Assembly: GCA_020723345.1 (NCBI GenBank)
Contig: DYJA01000026.1
Location: 1 to 64,000 of the forward strand
Source of the DNA: Candidatus Aquidulcis sp.
Lineage (GTDB): Bacteria; Chloroflexota; Anaerolineae; UBA4142
Direction: 5' to 3'
Length of the DNA stretch: 64,000 nt
The notes beneath the pieces were generated by a model. It saw only the letters and a list, made by a program, of their open reading frames with translations, was not told where the DNA came from and ran no database searches. Shown here one piece after another: positions 1 to 17,318 of the stretch (positions are counted from its first letter, which is position 1; the number at the start of each line of letters is the position of its first letter). The position numbers were made by a program, and so were the translations under genes.

Positions 1-1135
1 TCACCGTTCGCAGCGTCGTCCCCATCGGCACTTCGATCAAGCCGGTCACGTTCACGTCGCCGAGCATCGTGTACACTTTGGTGCCCGGACATTTCGCGGT
101 GCCAAGCGTGCGGTACCACGCCGCGCCTTTGCGAATAATCGGCGGCAGGTTCGCGAGCGACTCGACGTTGTTGACGGCAGTCGGGTTGCCCCAAATGCCG
201 AACGTCGTCGGGTACGGCGGGCGGATGCGCGGCTCGCCGCGTTTGCCTTCGAGCGATTCGATCAGCGCGGTCTCTTCGCCGCAAATGTACGCGCCCGCGC
301 CGGAATGAATGTGAATCTCGAACGAAAAATCGCCGCCAAAAATTTTCTCGCCAAGCAGACCAAACGCGTGCGCTTGCACGATCGCCTTCTCCAATCGTTC
401 GCGCGCTTGAACATACTCGCCGCGCAAATAAATGTAGCCCGCGCGCGCGCCAATCGCGTACCCCGAAATCAGCATCCCTTCGATGACCGCGTGCGGATCG
501 CCTTCGATGATCAAGCGGTCTTTGAACGTCCCAGGTTCGGATTCGTCCGCGTTGCACAACACGAATTTTCTCTCGCCGCGCGTTTCTGCGACAATTTTCA
601 ATTTCATTCCAATCGGAAACCCCGCGCCGCCGCGACCCTGCGCGCCCGCGTCAATAATTTCCTGAACGACTTGGGCAGGCGTCATCTCCGTCAACGCTTT
701 GCCAAGCGCGGCGTAGCCGTCGTGCGCGATGTAATCCTCGATGGATTCGGGATTGATGATGCCGGCGCGCGCGAGCACGACGCGCTGCTGCGCGAAGAGC
801 GCGCCTTCGCGCGATGGCACGCGCACGATTGCGCCGGTCAACGGTTTCGTGATGACGCGCAGCGCGTCCACAACGCGTCCCTTGTAAAGATGCTCCGACA
901 CGATCAGCGGCGCGTCGTTCGCGGTGAGCGGTCCGTAGACGACGCCTTCGGGATAGACGATTGCCGCCGGGAGTTGCGCGGGCGGCACGCGCAAATCGCC
1001 CGTGAACGCAACCGCGACTTCATCGGTCAGCGCGTAAAACGCAAGTTCCGCGTCGAACGCGGATTTGATTGCTTCCGCGTTACGCGCGAGTGAAATTGGA
1101 TCGCCGGAAATGAGAATGTGTGAACGATGAGGCAT
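1..1135 (-). CDS. nuoF: NuoF/HydB-like NADH-binding flavoprotein subunit, C-terminus beyond the left edge
   Basis: This is the NADH/FMN-binding subunit of a formate dehydrogenase or hydrogenase type complex. The first 378 codons are in the window. A thioredoxin-like domain (about residues 1-90) precedes the 51-kDa domain, which shows GRGGAGF (168-174), CNADESEPG (194-202) and GAYICGEETAL (281-291). The SLBB and 4Fe-4S parts lie outside. The thioredoxin-like domain has no cysteine, so it cannot bind the [2Fe-2S] cluster of its relatives. Start ATG at 1135 has a GGAGG six bases upstream. The family is certain; the partner complex is not. The nearby fdhD gene favours formate dehydrogenase, whose catalytic gene would lie to the left. 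Confidence 0.93.
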   Translation of the reverse strand, partial: MPHRSHILISGDPISLARNAEAIKSAFDAELAFYALTDEVAVAFTGDLRVPPAQLPAAIVYPEGVVYGPLTANDAPLIVSEHLYKGRVVDALRVITKPLTGAIVRVPSREGALFAQQRVVLARAGIINPESIEDYIAHDGYAALGKALTEMTPAQVVQEIIDAGAQGRGGAGFPIGMKLKIVAETRGERKFVLCNADESEPGTFKDRLIIEGDPHAVIEGMLISGYAIGARAGYIYLRGEYVQARERLEKAIVQAHAFGLLGEKIFGGDFSFEIHIHSGAGAYICGEETALIESLEGKRGEPRIRPPYPTTFGIWGNPTAVNNVESLANLPPIIRKGAAWYRTLGTAKCPGTKVYTMLGDVNVTGLIEVPMGTTLRTV

Positions 1136-1214
1136 GGCGCCTCCAAGTTGGTTGGTCAATTGGTCAATTGGTCGTTAGGTATCTGGTTTTTCCCATTGAC
1201 AGCAAGAATGCCAC

Positions 1215-2447
1215 CTACGGCTTGTAGGGCTTTGACCGAAACAGTCGCCCATCAGCAAGCCCAATATAAAAGCGATTATCTACATACTCTAGAGAAAGCA
1301 CCGTATGCCCATTAGGATGCGTCGAGTCTTGTCCTTCCTGAAAATCAAATCTGAAGACCGGTGTAAAATCCTGTATGCACCGACACGCCAAGGTTCGAGC
1401 GCGCATAACAAATCCATCTCCAGAAGTTCTGCCTAGAAGCACATAAAGTCCATCCTTCGCGGAAACTACGTCGCGGACGGGCCAGTCGAATTGAACCAAC
1501 CAAGGAGTCTGTCCATCGAAGAAATAGAGTCGCGGGCTGTTGTATTGATTGGACCTATAGGCGATCACGCCATACGTGTACGGCACCAAAACCGCGTTGT
1601 CATTGAAAATGACGTTCTTGTAGACATCGTCATAGCGAGCAGGCAGACAGTTTGCTTTGACAAACGTATTGCCCTCAAGCACAAAACACCCCGCCCGCCC
1701 CGTGGTCACGAAGAGTCGCTCCCCGAGGACAAAGAAACTGCCGCGTAATTGCCCTGGTAAGACGAGTGAGTCTTTCCAGGTTCGACCATTGTCCGTAGAC
1801 AACCAGGCAACCATGGCTCCTGATGGCTGCTGGTCGGTTGCCCCCGTTGCGATCAGTGATTGACCAAACAAACCTACATCCCAAACATGTACACCTCTCG
1901 GGATGGTACGCAACTTGATCCACTTGGCGTCCCATCGCTTGGAGTACATATTTCCAAAATCCCAGCTCTCTTTAGCATCGGCGCCGGCCGCGAAAAGGGT
2001 ATCGCCCTGGACGCGGAATTTATCAATTGCCTCATCGTCAAAGATGAAATTGTCGTCATGAACAAAGCGTTCAGACGCCAAGTCGAAGTATATGGCTCGC
2101 ACAGGTCCAGTATTGTTATACAAATCGCCATGAGCCACATACAGCCGGTCGTGCCAAAGCTGCAGGTCATTGATAGTCCAGTGGCTTGGCTTTGGACTGT
2201 ACGAAGCAGGTACGCCCATCAGGTCAAAGCCAAGTACTGGTAATGTCGGCGTTGCCGTCGGCGTCACTGTTGGCACTACTGTTGACGTTGCGGTTGCAGT
2301 CGCCGTTGCCGTTGTTGTCGGTGTCTGCGTTGGTGTCAGGGTATTAGTCGGCAACGGTGAAGGAGTCACTGTTGGCGTTGCTGTAGGTGCAGGTGAGCAC
2401 GCCGCCACGATCCCGAGAATGAGCATCAGAATGATTGTGTTTTTCAT
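1215..2447 (-). CDS. Secreted lipoprotein with Thr/Pro-rich linker and propeller-like body
   Basis: This is a predicted exported lipoprotein of 410 residues with unknown function. A short signal peptide ends in a lipobox with Cys at residue 17. A linker of about 50 residues made nearly only of Thr, Pro, Ala and Val follows, then a globular part with repeated aromatic and Asp/Gly-rich segments such as DNGRTW and SAKDGLYVL, which resemble sialidase/BNR-type or other beta-propeller repeats. The ATG at 2447 was chosen over the upstream codon because AGGAG lies directly before it and it starts the signal peptide. Long Thr/Pro linkers after the lipid anchor are common in Chloroflexota. A substrate cannot be named. 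Confidence 0.8.
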   Translation of the reverse strand: MKNTIILMLILGIVAACSPAPTATPTVTPSPLPTNTLTPTQTPTTTATATATATSTVVPTVTPTATPTLPVLGFDLMGVPASYSPKPSHWTINDLQLWHDRLYVAHGDLYNNTGPVRAIYFDLASERFVHDDNFIFDDEAIDKFRVQGDTLFAAGADAKESWDFGNMYSKRWDAKWIKLRTIPRGVHVWDVGLFGQSLIATGATDQQPSGAMVAWLSTDNGRTWKDSLVLPGQLRGSFFVLGERLFVTTGRAGCFVLEGNTFVKANCLPARYDDVYKNVIFNDNAVLVPYTYGVIAYRSNQYNSPRLYFFDGQTPWLVQFDWPVRDVVSAKDGLYVLLGRTSGDGFVMRARTLACRCIQDFTPVFRFDFQEGQDSTHPNGHTVLSLEYVDNRFYIGLADGRLFRSKPYKP

Positions 2448-2538
2448 AAATCTCCTCAAGAAATTGATCCGTCATTACCGGCGGATGCAATCCGACGCGA
2501 CCCAAGTGCAAACTCGATAGATCGAGTTGGCAATTTGC

Positions 2539-2567
2539 TTGACAATCCACTCGGTTTCTGGTATGCT
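2539..2567 (+). promoter_or_regulatory. Promoter of small structured RNA, copy 1
   Basis: TTGACA at 2539-2544 and TATGCT at 2562-2567 are separated by 17 bp, which is near-consensus for a housekeeping sigma factor. The expected start is about 2574, just before the 5' strand of the RNA closing stem. The same -35 and -10 hexamers with the same spacing recur at 6614-6642 before the second RNA copy, although the spacer sequences differ. Confidence 0.8.
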
Positions 2568-2573
2568 ATAGTT

Positions 2574-2662
2574 ACGATCGGGTGACCCGCCGCCTCCCTA
2601 GCACACCACTAGGGACTAAGCGGGCGTATGAGCGATTACGCTCCCCCGATCATTTTCTTTTG
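2574..2662 (+). ncRNA. Small structured RNA, copy 1 (family not recognised)
   Basis: This is a predicted independent transcript of about 88 nt. P1 closes it: GATCGGG (2576-2582) pairs with CCCGATC (2645-2651). Inside are P2, CCCGC (2586-2590) with GCGGG (2620-2624); P3, CCCTAG (2596-2601) with CTAGGG (2609-2614), closing a CACACCA loop; and P4, GAGCG (2630-2634) with CGCTC (2639-2643). A T-rich run (2653-2661) follows P1 as in an intrinsic terminator. The second copy (6649-6737) differs at 9 of the 76 core positions by hand count. The RNA has its own promoter and no open frame, and its 3' end overlaps the last codons of the convergent gene at 2650. It fits no riboswitch or ribozyme I know. 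Confidence 0.72.
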
Positions 2663-3111
2663 GAAATCGCTCTCAAGAATTCTGCCTCGGTAATTCGCCT
2701 GTTCGCTGTCTGCCGGTGCCGCACAATCTCGACCGCGAGATGATGTGCTGGAGATCGTTTGCCAACATGTCGAAACAAAATACGCGTCGGATCAAAGTGT
2801 GGAGCATCTCGGCGCAGATAAGCGATCAACGTATTCTTGATCTCTATCTCTCTCCCGGTATATTCAACGTCAATGCCAATTTGATCTACCTGATGAATAA
2901 CATTCCTCAGCAGGAAGTAAAGCCCAATCGCAAAGGTATAGATCGCGACAGCAGTGTGTGACTTGCCTTTCGCGCGCAAGCGTTGCATCACCACGCGCTT
3001 GACGTTGGCGGGAATGACAATCGCATACGAAATTCCATCGGCAACTGCCAACACAGTATCGCGTACAAGGTCGTCCATCTTGATGCTTTGATCAACCTCT
3101 GCGTTGGTCAC
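2650..3111 (-). CDS. 153-residue protein paired with structured RNA, copy 1
   Basis: This is an unrecognised protein. The GTG at 3111 was chosen because homology to the paralogue at 6725-7186 begins exactly there and both are then 153 residues; about 103 positions are identical by hand count, without gaps. Conserved blocks include GIS-x-AIVIP (26-34), IDVEYTG (80-86) and FRH-x-GK-x-S-x-AHHLA (113-126). The order of a hydrophobic strand, helix, acidic strand, helix and a basic/His-rich C-terminal block recalls an RNase H-like fold, but this is only a hypothesis. No signal peptide is seen. The last codons and the TGA overlap the 3' end of the convergent RNA. It lies downstream of sdhB in the same direction. 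Confidence 0.75.
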   Translation of the reverse strand: MTNAEVDQSIKMDDLVRDTVLAVADGISYAIVIPANVKRVVMQRLRAKGKSHTAVAIYTFAIGLYFLLRNVIHQVDQIGIDVEYTGREIEIKNTLIAYLRRDAPHFDPTRILFRHVGKRSPAHHLAVEIVRHRQTANRRITEAEFLRAISKRK

Positions 3112-3224
3112 GTTGTTTTGCCTCTCCCTGCTTGATTCTCTCGTCGCCGCGCGACACGCATCACGCCTCACGCTCCGCGCATCGCGCGGCGACTGTCCCA
3201 CTGATTGCCTGATCGCCCGATTAC

Positions 3225-3947
3225 CTAAATCTTCCCCGTGAGTTTCCCCCACATCACTTTCTTCTTCATCTCCTGAATCCCGAACGTGATTGGAATTTTC
3301 TTGGGACACTCTTCCGTGCAGTTGAAAATCGTGTGGCAGCGGAAGACGCCTTCTTCGCTCGCGACGATCTTCAACCGCTCCGCGCCGCCTTCATCGCGCG
3401 AGTCCGCGACGAACCGATACATCTTGGCGAGCGCGGCGGGTCCCAGATATTCCTTGTCCCACCACGCGGTCGAGCAAGACGTGTGACAGCACGCGCACAG
3501 AATGCAATCGATGAACTCGTCAATCCTTTTGCGATCTTCGACGTTCTGGATGCGCTCTTTCCCCGAAGGGGGCGGTTCTTTCAGCGCGATGAGATACGGG
3601 CGCACGCGCTCGTACTTGTCCCAGAACGTCGTCATATCGACGACGAGGTCTTTGAGCACCGGCAAATGCGGCAGCGGTTCGATCAGCACTTCATTGCCGA
3701 GCGTCGCGAGTTGCGTTTCGCACGCGAGCATGTTCTTGCCGTTGATGTGCATCCCGCAACTGCCGCACACCGCGCTGCGGCACGACGCGCGGAACGCGAG
3801 CGACTTGTCCACATTTTCGAGAACGTGGTACAGCGCCATCAGCACCGTCAACCCCGGCGTCAATTCGATCTGATAGTTCTGATATTTCGCCGCCGAGTCG
3901 AGTTCTGGGTCGCGGCGGTAGATGCGAAGGGTTACTGTTTGGCTCAT
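3225..3947 (-). CDS. sdhB: Succinate dehydrogenase/fumarate reductase iron-sulfur subunit
   Basis: This subunit carries electrons from the flavoprotein to the membrane quinone site of complex II. All cluster ligands are present: [2Fe-2S] Cys 56, 61, 64 and 76; [4Fe-4S] Cys 148, 151, 154 and 214; and [3Fe-4S] Cys 158, 204 and 210, a spacing that matches E. coli SdhB closely. The length of 240 residues is normal. It is the last gene of the sdhC-sdhD-sdhA-sdhB operon. A word-repeat array (3112-3224) begins straight after the stop codon. Confidence 0.97.
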   Translation of the reverse strand: MSQTVTLRIYRRDPELDSAAKYQNYQIELTPGLTVLMALYHVLENVDKSLAFRASCRSAVCGSCGMHINGKNMLACETQLATLGNEVLIEPLPHLPVLKDLVVDMTTFWDKYERVRPYLIALKEPPPSGKERIQNVEDRKRIDEFIDCILCACCHTSCSTAWWDKEYLGPAALAKMYRFVADSRDEGGAERLKIVASEEGVFRCHTIFNCTEECPKKIPITFGIQEMKKKVMWGKLTGKI

Positions 3948-3969
3948 TGCGTTGCTCCAGTCAGTCAGT

Positions 3970-4024
3970 ACTCAGTGTGCAGTATTCAGTCAAACTGAAT
4001 ACTGCATACTGAACACTGCACACT
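3970..4024. repeat. Self-complementary short-word array between sdhA and sdhB
   Basis: Variants of the words CAGTATT, CAGTGTT and CAGTGTG are followed after a CAA spacer by their reverse complements, giving a hairpin of about 25 bp per arm. The array starts in the last base of the sdhA stop codon. The same word family forms arrays at 8548-8650 and 14160-14275. Confidence 0.85.
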
Positions 4025-5726
4025 AGTATTTCCGTTCCTCCGGCTGCCACTTGGTAATCGTCACCGGCTTGTAATCGAGACGCGCGCCGTCGGGCGTAAA
4101 GTACGCGAGCGTGTGCTTCATCCAGTTCGCATCGTCGCGCGTTTTGAAATCGAGACGCGAGTGCCCGCCGCGCGATTCCTTGCGCGCGAGTGCGCCCGTC
4201 GCCGTCGCTTCCGCCACGTCCAACATACCACCCAGTTCGATGGTGCGCAGCAAATCGAGATTGAACTTGAGATTCTTCGCGTCGACGCCGATGTTGCGAT
4301 AGCGCTTTCGCAATTCGCGCAATAACGCGACCGCTTCCGTCATCGGTTTTTCGTCACGATAAATGCCGATCTGGTCCGTCATCGCGTCTTGCATCGGATC
4401 GCGCAGCGTGACGAGGCGTTCTTTGCCGGACGATTTCAGCAGCGCGTCGACTTCTGCCGATGTTTTCTTCAGCGCGTCGTTCAGCACCGCTTCTTTGAGC
4501 GCGGACGCTTTGCCTTTGACGAACTTGCCTGCCGCCGCGCCGGCGCGCTGCCCCATCACGACACATTCGAGCAAGCTGTTGCCGCCGAGACGATTCGCGC
4601 CGTGGACGCTGACGCACGCGCACTCGCCCGCCGCGAACACGCCGGGCAAAATCGTCGCGCCGTCTTTGTCGGTGTCGATGCCGCCCATGATGAAATGCAT
4701 GCCGGGTTGAATCGGAATCGGTTTTTCAATTGGATCGAGACCTAGGAAACTGATGCAGATGTCGCGAATGCCGGGCAGGCGTTCCAGAATTTTTTCGCGA
4801 CCCAGGTGGCGCAGATCGAGATAGACGCTGCCGCCGCCGTCGGGCAAGCCGCGCCCTTCGTTGATTTCGGTTTGAATCGAGCGCGAGACGATATCGCGCG
4901 GCGCGAGTTCCATCGCTTTGGCGGCGTAACGCTGCATAAATCGTTCGCCGTCTTTGTTGATGATGTAGCCGCCTTCGCCGCGCGCGCCTTCGGTCATCAA
5001 AATATTCGTGCCGATGATCGTCGTCGGATGGAATTGCACGAATTCCATATCCTTGAGCGGAATGCCGGCGCGATACGCGACCGCGAGACAAAAGCCGGTC
5101 GACTGCATCGCGTTCGACGTGCGCTTGTAGATGCGCCCCGCGCCGCCGGTCGCAAAGATGACCGCGTCCGCCGCGAACGCGCCGATTTCGCCGGTTTGCA
5201 AATTCAGCGCGACGAGTCCGTGATTTTGCGCGCCGTCACTCGCGAGCGAGAGCGCCGCCCACTCGTTGTACACCTTGACGCGCTGCTTGACCGCTTGCTC
5301 GTTGAGCGTGTGCAAAATGTAGAGCCCGGTCTTGTCGGCGGCGTAACACGTGCGCGGATAACCCGCGCCGCCGAACGGTCGCTGCGCGATCTTTCCATCG
5401 AAGGTTCGGCTGAACGGCACGCCCCAGTGCTCGAGTTCGTAAATACGCGTCGGCGCGTCGGTCGTCATCGTTTCCGAGCAATCTTGATCGGCGAGAAAGT
5501 CCGCGCCTTTGACCGTATCGTACGCGTGCTTTGCCGGAGAATCGTCTTTACATTCCGGCATATTCGCGAGCGCGGCGTTGATGCCGCCTTGCGCCGCGCC
5601 GGAGTGCGAACGCACCGGATAGAGCAGCGAGAGCACCGCGGTATCCACACCCAGCATCGCGCACTCGACCGCGGCGCGCAAGCCCGCCAATCCGCCGCCG
5701 ACGATAATGACTTGATGTTTCAGCAT
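4023..5726 (-). CDS. sdhA: Succinate dehydrogenase/fumarate reductase flavoprotein subunit
   Basis: This is the catalytic subunit that oxidises succinate to fumarate (or the reverse) with covalently bound FAD. It has 567 residues. The FAD-binding GGGLAG is at 10-15, the RSHSGAAQGG segment (39-48) holds the His expected to bind FAD, and QFHPTT, TEGARGEGG, HFIMGG and GANRLGGNSLLE are all present. The ATG at 5726 follows a strong GAGGAGG ribosome site; a longer frame extending to 6065 runs through sdhD in another reading frame and is not coding. It is downstream of sdhD with a 14-bp gap. Confidence 0.97.
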   Translation of the reverse strand: MLKHQVIIVGGGLAGLRAAVECAMLGVDTAVLSLLYPVRSHSGAAQGGINAALANMPECKDDSPAKHAYDTVKGADFLADQDCSETMTTDAPTRIYELEHWGVPFSRTFDGKIAQRPFGGAGYPRTCYAADKTGLYILHTLNEQAVKQRVKVYNEWAALSLASDGAQNHGLVALNLQTGEIGAFAADAVIFATGGAGRIYKRTSNAMQSTGFCLAVAYRAGIPLKDMEFVQFHPTTIIGTNILMTEGARGEGGYIINKDGERFMQRYAAKAMELAPRDIVSRSIQTEINEGRGLPDGGGSVYLDLRHLGREKILERLPGIRDICISFLGLDPIEKPIPIQPGMHFIMGGIDTDKDGATILPGVFAAGECACVSVHGANRLGGNSLLECVVMGQRAGAAAGKFVKGKASALKEAVLNDALKKTSAEVDALLKSSGKERLVTLRDPMQDAMTDQIGIYRDEKPMTEAVALLRELRKRYRNIGVDAKNLKFNLDLLRTIELGGMLDVAEATATGALARKESRGGHSRLDFKTRDDANWMKHTLAYFTPDGARLDYKPVTITKWQPEERKY

Positions 5727-5740
5727 AGTTTTTATCCTCC

Positions 5741-6097
5741 TCACTTGACGAAGAACGTCAGCGCGTACGCGCCCCAGAGCAGGAACGCGAGACCGACGAG
5801 CCAGAACAAAATGTTGAACGCGCGGCGTTTGCCGTCGGCTACGACGAAATCGAACAACACGTTGCGAACGCCGTTGAGTCCGTGGAATAACCCGACCGCG
5901 AGCAAGCCGCCGTCGATGATTAGATACAGCAGACTTTTGAACCGCGCCGCGGCGCCGAGAAAATTGATGTTCAAATTTTCGGGCACGTAATGCAGCACGA
6001 ACAGGTGCGCGCCCAGGAAAAAAACCAGCAGAACGGCGGTGATGCGCTGCCAAATCCACGCCCACACGCCTTGGGGTTTGGGTGTAACTTGTGTCAT
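5741..6097 (-). CDS. sdhD: Succinate dehydrogenase membrane anchor subunit (SdhD-like)
   Basis: This is a small membrane protein of 118 residues with three hydrophobic segments (about 14-36, 52-75 and 93-116) that would anchor SdhAB and help form the quinone/haem site. The sequence QRITAVLLVFFLGAHLF in the first segment and HGLNGVRN after the second carry the arginine and histidines typical of these anchors. HGLNG-x-R is shared with the SdhC-like protein upstream, so the two anchors are related. Which is called C or D is by gene order only. Confidence 0.88.
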   Translation of the reverse strand: MTQVTPKPQGVWAWIWQRITAVLLVFFLGAHLFVLHYVPENLNINFLGAAARFKSLLYLIIDGGLLAVGLFHGLNGVRNVLFDFVVADGKRRAFNILFWLVGLAFLLWGAYALTFFVK

Positions 6098-16142: not shown

Positions 16143-17273
16143 TCAGAATAAAACAAGTTGCCGTGTCGGCACGCGACCATCGAGCAAGACGAACGGCGCG
16201 GCGCGCTTTTCGTCCGCGCCGACGCGCGCGAGTTGTTCGATCGCGCGGAACTTTGTCGTGCGGCGCATCTGCACGATGCGGCGCACCGAAATGGGACCGA
16301 GCCCGGGGACGCGGAGCAATTCTTCCCGGCTCGCGCGATTCAATTCGATGGGGAAAAATTCGGGGTGGTGGATCGCCCAGATCGTTTTGGGATCCGCTTC
16401 GGTCGGCAGATTGCCGCGCCCGTCGAAGATCAATTCGTCGAACGTGAAGCCGTACTGGCGAAAAAGAAAATCGGTTTGGTACAGCCGATTCTCGCGGATG
16501 AGCGGCGTCGGCGCGCGTCCGTCGAGCGGCGTGTTTTCGATGGGCTGGAACGCCGAATAGTAAATGCGCGCGAGCCGCAGATCGCGGTACAGTTGCGCGG
16601 TGCGCGCGGCGATCTCGCGGTCGGTCTCGTCCGCCGCGCCGACGACGAATTGGGTCGTCATCGTCTTGTTCCGCAACTTTGGATCGTTCGCGATCAACTT
16701 GCGCGCGATGCACAGCGGCGCGAGCAATTCTTCCGTGTAGCGCTTCGTGGACGAAAGTTTCGCGAGGTGCTCGGACGACGGCGCTTCGAGGTTGACCGAG
16801 ACGCGGTCGGCGAGTTGGAGCGCGCGTTCAATCGCGGCAGTTTCCGCGCCCGGCATCAATTTCAAATGAAGATAGCCGCGAAACGCGTACTTGTGGCGGA
16901 TGAGATCGGCGGTCGCGATCATGCGCTCCATCGTGCGCGTGCCGCCGCCCGCAACGCCGCTGGAAAGGAAGATCGCTTCGGCGAGATTCGCGCGGTGGAT
17001 TTGATCGAAGGTACGCGCGAGTTCGTCGGGTTGAAACGTCGTGCGCGGTTGTTCGCGCGCGCGACGCGTCGCGCAGTAAAAGCAATCGTTCTCGCACGCG
17101 TTCGTCTGCAAGACCTTCAACATGCGGATCAGTTTGCCATCGGGGCGGACGGCGGGATAAATCCAGCGCCCGATGTCGTCGCGCACGCGCTTTTGTCCTT
17201 CGCCGCACGAACCGCACGCGAGATCGGCTTGTGCGCCGGAGCCGAGCAAATCGAGTTTCTGCGGAATGTCCAT
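16143..17273 (-). CDS. Radical SAM protein of the putative DNA modification/repair family
   Basis: This 376-residue enzyme is predicted to use S-adenosylmethionine radical chemistry in DNA repair or base modification. The radical SAM triad is CENDCFYC (Cys 60, 64, 67); an earlier CGSC (20-23) and a C-terminal helix-hairpin-helix (LLRVPGLGPISVRRIVQ, about 320-336) are typical of the family that is often linked to a uracil-DNA glycosylase-like protein. The usual partner gene is not next to it here. ATG at 17273 has GGTGAGG just upstream, and the promoter contains a LexA box, which supports a DNA-damage role. Confidence 0.9.
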   Translation of the reverse strand: MDIPQKLDLLGSGAQADLACGSCGEGQKRVRDDIGRWIYPAVRPDGKLIRMLKVLQTNACENDCFYCATRRAREQPRTTFQPDELARTFDQIHRANLAEAIFLSSGVAGGGTRTMERMIATADLIRHKYAFRGYLHLKLMPGAETAAIERALQLADRVSVNLEAPSSEHLAKLSSTKRYTEELLAPLCIARKLIANDPKLRNKTMTTQFVVGAADETDREIAARTAQLYRDLRLARIYYSAFQPIENTPLDGRAPTPLIRENRLYQTDFLFRQYGFTFDELIFDGRGNLPTEADPKTIWAIHHPEFFPIELNRASREELLRVPGLGPISVRRIVQMRRTTKFRAIEQLARVGADEKRAAPFVLLDGRVPTRQLVLF

Positions 17274-17289
17274 CGCCTCACCCGACTCT

Positions 17290-17318
17290 ATTATAGCGAA
17301 CAAGTGTTCGGTTGTCAA
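17290..17318 (-). promoter_or_regulatory. Consensus promoter of the radical SAM gene
   Basis: On the minus strand a perfect TTGACA (17318-17313) and a perfect TATAAT (17295-17290) are 17 bp apart. Transcription would start near 17283, leaving a leader of about 10 nt that contains the ribosome site. Such a strong promoter fits a gene that is kept off by a repressor. Confidence 0.88.
17297..17310. promoter_or_regulatory. LexA (SOS) box inside the promoter spacer
   Basis: CGAACAAGTGTTCG matches the Bacillus-type LexA operator CGAAC-N4-GTTCG at every fixed position, with perfect dyad symmetry. It occupies most of the spacer between -35 and -10, so bound LexA would block RNA polymerase. Confidence 0.85.

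Follow-up and report, generated by a model that had tools for sequence, protein, structure and literature searches.

To our knowledge, few radical SAM enzymes act on DNA. The family TIGR03916, which we take to be paired with a TIGR03915/DUF4130 partner as it has been described, was until now called 'putative DNA modification/repair' solely through its gene neighbours. LexA-controlled COG1573-COG4277 (UDG - radical SAM) operons have been reported in Bacteroidetes, and the same paper cites (refs 7 and 65) earlier such reports in Verrucomicrobia and Alphaproteobacteria (PMC8565304). Spore photoproduct lyase (SplB, COG1533) is reported to be an SOS gene in several species (PMC8565304), and a gene network linked to SOS groups DUF4130 with genes of the radical SAM and UDG families (PMC3765255). 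In the literature searched, we found no paper on the radical SAM gene in Chloroflexota, none that mentions TIGR03916 by name and one that mentions COG4277. RegPrecise 3.0 contains a LexA collection and a collection of 5 Chloroflexi genomes.

The gene described here lies on the minus strand of the window, the whole 64,000-nucleotide stretch of Candidatus Aquidulcis sp. DNA that was analysed. Its promoter, TTGACAACCGAACACTTGTTCGCTATAAT (17318-17290, minus strand), matches TTGACA-N17-TATAAT with 0 mismatches, just as the preliminary description had claimed, and even when one mismatch is tolerated the window contains no second such site (expected number of sites 0.02). By sequence reading, the -35 element TTGACA occupies 17313..17318 and the -10 element TATAAT 17290..17295 (both minus strand). 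The 17-bp spacer between them (17296-17312) is filled by the LexA (SOS) box CGAACACTTGTTCG (17297..17310, minus strand), which is conserved in homologues. The box had been called a perfect Bacillus-type SOS box, and the match is indeed exact: CGAACNNNNGTTCG at 17297-17310 is the sole 0-mismatch SOS-box site in the window. Read on the minus strand from 17318, the order is TTGACA-ACCGAACACTTGTTCGC-TATAAT (to 17290), followed by AGAGTCGGGTGAGGCG-ATG. This ATG (17271..17273, minus strand) stands 16 nt past the -10 element, which leaves a short leader. Although the mechanical 420-aa ORF opens at a GTG further upstream, we took the ATG at 17273 as the true start, because the homologues begin MDxxxKL at that point. 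About 230 bp separate the radical SAM stop codon from 15911, where the gene that follows on this strand ends, and the radical SAM transcript is therefore probably a single-gene one. Taken together with the comparisons below, it is very likely that the locus represents a LexA operator in a strong sigma-70-type promoter, placed before an SOS-controlled radical SAM enzyme that probably acts on DNA.

The gene (16143..17273, minus strand) encodes a 376-aa radical SAM and helix-hairpin-helix (HhH) protein, which family profiles, Pfam and alignment identify as a relative of TIGR03916 / COG4277. TIGR03916, 'putative DNA modification/repair radical SAM protein', was the best family (317.5 bits, E 1.5e-94, profile positions 2-380 of 415). 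Its strict equivalog cut-off was not reached (317.5 vs 343.5 bits) and is exceeded in only 13/199 genomes of the class. Pfam recognised the domains Radical_SAM and HHH_3. The CxxxCxxC [4Fe-4S] motif (C60, C64 and C67; 17073..17096, minus strand) is invariant in 27 homologues, as are many residues of the C-terminal helix-hairpin-helix DNA-binding motif (HHH_3, residues 309-351; 16221..16349, minus strand), which was located by Pfam and by a sequence search of solved chains. The protein thus has the TIGR03916 layout, radical SAM CxxxCxxC plus C-terminal HhH, over its whole length. The AlphaFold model (mean pLDDT 90.2, pTM 0.88) contains a confident radical SAM barrel. Spore photoproduct lyase as an identity finds no support in these tests: no photoproduct-lyase family model of NCBIfam matched at E<=0.001, and no photoproduct lyase was found among the best 50 Foldseek matches listed.

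Among the alternatives, the one that survives best accepts the SOS control and proposes that the target of the enzyme is not DNA but RNA, a cofactor or a small molecule produced in the course of recovery. Such a role would fit the comparison by sequence and fold, in which the barrel is placed only generally among radical SAM enzymes: among the Foldseek matches listed there were general relatives only, HydE first (TM ~0.48), then biotin synthase and PFL-AE, with lipoyl synthase also in this group. We nevertheless consider it unlikely, because the sequence search of solved chains returned, besides the cluster loop of HydE, the DNA-binding HhH of ComEA and polymerase X as the closest relatives of the C-terminal motif with its invariant residues, and because both the SOS regulation and the pairing with UDG-like genes elsewhere (PMC8565304) point to DNA. 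Radical SAM relatives of a general kind only, together with the HhH matches, indicate that the protein is a radical SAM enzyme of a distinct kind, has a DNA-binding tail and is, by these tests, no photoproduct lyase. We infer DNA as the substrate from three things: the presence of the HhH motif, the way the gene is regulated, and the family context in other phyla.

The preliminary description had proposed to find the genome's lexA and its own operator, and had named a missing LexA, or one that recognises another sequence, as evidence against its reading. A profile search found two full-length lexA genes above the curated cut-off, and GAACN4GTTC operators are present on both of them and on recA. 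LexA1 has an Ala-Gly cleavage site and a Ser/Lys dyad (by inspection), and its promoter carries GAACAGGTGTTC and a second near-box. The lexA2 promoter reads TTGACA-CAGAACAAGTGTTCGGC-TATAAT with the operator between -35 and -10, the same arrangement as in the recA promoter, TTGACTCCGAACACTTGTTCTGTTATAAT. The recA promoter and the window promoter have the 12-mer GAACACTTGTTC in common, and lexA, recA and the radical SAM gene all carry an operator of one and the same type. In addition, uvrA carries CGAACAAAAGTTCG just downstream of a -10-like stretch, and genes for a RecA/ImuA-like protein, a Y-family polymerase and a DnaE2-type error-prone polymerase lie downstream of CGAACAGGCGTTCG, with a LuxR-like ORF between. 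This cluster occupies 24-5463 of its contig (L352, G000:C33), with the LexA-like box at 6076. The lexA, recA, uvrA and ImuA-cluster sites show that the window promoter is of the same type as the SOS promoters of its genome. Both lexA paralogues (L015 and L016, G000:C56 and C67) are complete, the second with a divergent N-terminal (DNA-binding) region, and two lexA genes also stand side by side in several relatives (G048, G059, G024 and G087).

A search for the box before homologues in related genomes had also been suggested, and this comparison came out clearly in favour of LexA control. At E<=0.001, the radical SAM family was found in 149/199 genomes of the class (Anaerolineae-like Chloroflexota), 14 of these 149 matches being weak (E above 1e-9), and 107 homologues of the class had usable upstream DNA. 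Exact GAACN4GTTC occurs within -200..+20 of 66/107 homologues (dinucleotide shuffles: mean 0.35, max 3), while the reversed pattern was found before 0/107, and the exact box in 0/330 in-gene windows and in 0/98 windows at -420..-200. With at least 7/8 bases matching, the box lies inside the -35/-10 spacer of 94/107 homologues (shuffles: mean 0.455, max 3); 68 of these 94 have a spacer of 17, and in three further homologues the box stands just past the -10 element. In about one fifth of the homologues (e.g. L048, L045 and L059) the ATG follows TATAAT within 12 nt, and these transcripts would therefore be leaderless or nearly so. When the homologue promoters were aligned on the box, positions 0-3 and 8-11 carried 1.4-2.0 bits each and the flanks almost none. 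Pairwise identity was 92% in the box, a value inflated by site selection, vs 26% in the flanks. Since the flanking DNA is unrelated, the box has been kept by selection. The class consensus is GAACATTTGTTC, with one half-site change (GCAC or GTGC) tolerated. Around 10/107 homologues, belonging to two families plus L065, L069 and L088, have no box, and up to 1.5 kb upstream of them we found nothing resembling a promoter-linked operator. LexA is nearly universal in the class (189/199 genomes), so LexA control of the gene is not absolute.

A second alternative accepts the box as real but assigns it to another dyad-binding repressor, or to the diverged second LexA alone, so that it would not serve the ordinary SOS response. 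The two lexA paralogues, with the N-terminal divergence of LexA2 noted by inspection, would allow for this, yet the same operator precedes lexA in 32/33 upstream regions of the class as well as the genome's recA and uvrA. Moreover, the homologue boxes have the consensus GAAC-A-N2-T-GTTC, which we take to be the Gram-positive LexA motif. We therefore regard this alternative as quite improbable and favour an operator read by LexA in the SOS response. The negative control miaB, another radical SAM gene, had a box in 0/30. For recA, a relaxed box was found within -260 of the profile start in 9/30 genomes, a number that may be too low because the box can sit further up, as at -209 in a recA of the same genus and in the genome's own recA.

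With 14 sites in the 6.34-Mb genome, against 12 of its reversed control, the bare 14-mer pattern is not enriched and thus proves nothing alone; an identical 14-mer at C67:684 apparently lies within a coding region. The promoter-embedded pattern (TTGA-N5..7-GAACN4GTTC-N0..3-TANNNT), on the other hand, has 2 sites in the 6.34 Mb vs 0 in the control. The probability that a strong promoter contains this palindrome by mere chance is negligible: although the bare 14-mer is no commoner than its reversed control, the box occupies the same place in almost all homologues despite their unrelated flanks and is also found on the genome's own lexA2 and recA promoters, and the comparison across genera and families has already refuted chance. 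The genome has just one further strict LexA-in-spacer promoter (L340, G000:C17:14421); it contains two tandem AGAACCGATGTTC boxes, and its contig ends downstream. Two other sites were noted. One, CGAACGAATGTTCG (L013, G000:C108:2585), overlaps the start codon of mraZ, with which the division cluster begins, and may reflect either chance or SOS control of division. The other, CGAACTAGTGTTCG (L012/L353, G000:C94:19849), is flanked by an hsdR-like type I restriction gene (minus) and by an ORF of 111 aa, which has no Pfam match and is served by a TTGACA/TATAAT promoter of its own.

In 30 relatives, the promoter-embedded pattern gave 38 listed positions, a few of which overlap and stand for a single site, vs 1 control match. 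In the window's own family the radical SAM gene follows most of these sites, and in the sister family an FtsK/SpoIIIE translocase does. At the sister-family loci L326, L328-L331, L343, L346 and L347, the LexA-in-spacer promoter precedes a ~340-376-aa FtsK/SpoIIIE-type DNA translocase (PF01580), likely a second unusual SOS gene of the order.

Beyond the class, the box or a variant of it was found before homologues at named loci in Thermincola, Sporomusaceae-like and other Bacillota MAGs and Dehalococcoidia-like MAGs. In two deltaproteobacterial-labelled MAGs, lexA and the radical SAM gene have a changed operator in common, GTAC/AAAC-N4-GTTCAGTA, which in one of them is exactly GTAC-N4-GTTCAGTAT; operator and target thus seem to have co-varied. 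A Nitrospirae MAG harbours lexA, a small ORF, the radical SAM gene and dinB in one row. When flanks were scanned for DUF4130, DinB and LexA, DUF4130 neighbours were found at Bacillota loci only. Within the class, the TIGR03915 and DUF4130 models matched in 0/199 genomes, while the Caulobacter and Bacteroides positive controls matched. The TIGR03915 model also recognises the Bacillota neighbour, which indicates that its sensitivity is adequate at moderate distance. The repair role that the preliminary description had cited as predicted from gene neighbours still stands as a prediction, but its basis is no longer neighbours only, and the TIGR03915/DUF4130 neighbour that had suggested it is absent from the class.

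Control by LexA through promoter occlusion, with relief after damage, is strongly supported by these comparisons. In an undamaged cell, a LexA dimer on CGAACACTTGTTCG between -35 and -10 would block RNA polymerase. After damage, RecA filaments would trigger self-cleavage of LexA and free the promoter, which would then give a short-leader, probably single-gene transcript for the 376-aa radical SAM enzyme. The enzyme would probably bind DNA via its C-terminal helix-hairpin-helix motif and act on a damaged or wrong base by means of a 5'-deoxyadenosyl radical, in the Anaerolineae-like class without the DUF4130/UDG-like partner found elsewhere. As the SOS switch sits at the same promoter place in almost all relatives of the class, the enzyme probably acts on damaged DNA. 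We infer LexA binding, repression and induction, like the substrate and the reaction; to call the promoter 'direct functional evidence' was too strong, since LexA control here rests on sequence comparison.

More tentatively, direct repair or editing of a DNA base by a stand-alone radical SAM enzyme might be a core SOS function of Anaerolineae. The operator of this enzyme is encountered more regularly than that of recA, and the enzyme would have no need for the glycosylase-type partner by which the system is thought to be defined. Because LexA control is conserved in a lineage without the neighbour, it is the radical SAM protein itself that is linked to DNA damage, and in a one-gene system the substrate can be sought without a partner.

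Compared with known systems, the operator corresponds to the Bacillus subtilis-type LexA operator (CGAAC-N4-GTTCG) in dyad, spacing and position between -35 and -10, with no notable difference. SplB offers an analogy in the way it works, being likewise a radical SAM protein with links to DNA repair and to control by LexA, whereas the protein described here carries an HhH motif and has no photoproduct lyase model match. With TIGR03916 (rSAM_link_UDG) it shares a full-length alignment, the CxxxCxxC motif and the C-terminal HhH, but it falls under the curated cut-off and lacks the TIGR03915 partner. In the COG1573-COG4277 SOS operon, LexA controls a radical SAM gene that, judged by name and domain content, belongs to the same family; in contrast, the gene here is stand-alone, has a Gram-positive-type GAACN4GTTC operator and belongs to a class from which the DUF4130/TIGR03915 partner is absent. 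The LexA link of the COG4277 family is already known in other phyla (PMC8565304). New is its extension to Chloroflexota, as a stand-alone SOS gene without the usual DUF4130/TIGR03915 partner in the 199 genomes searched.
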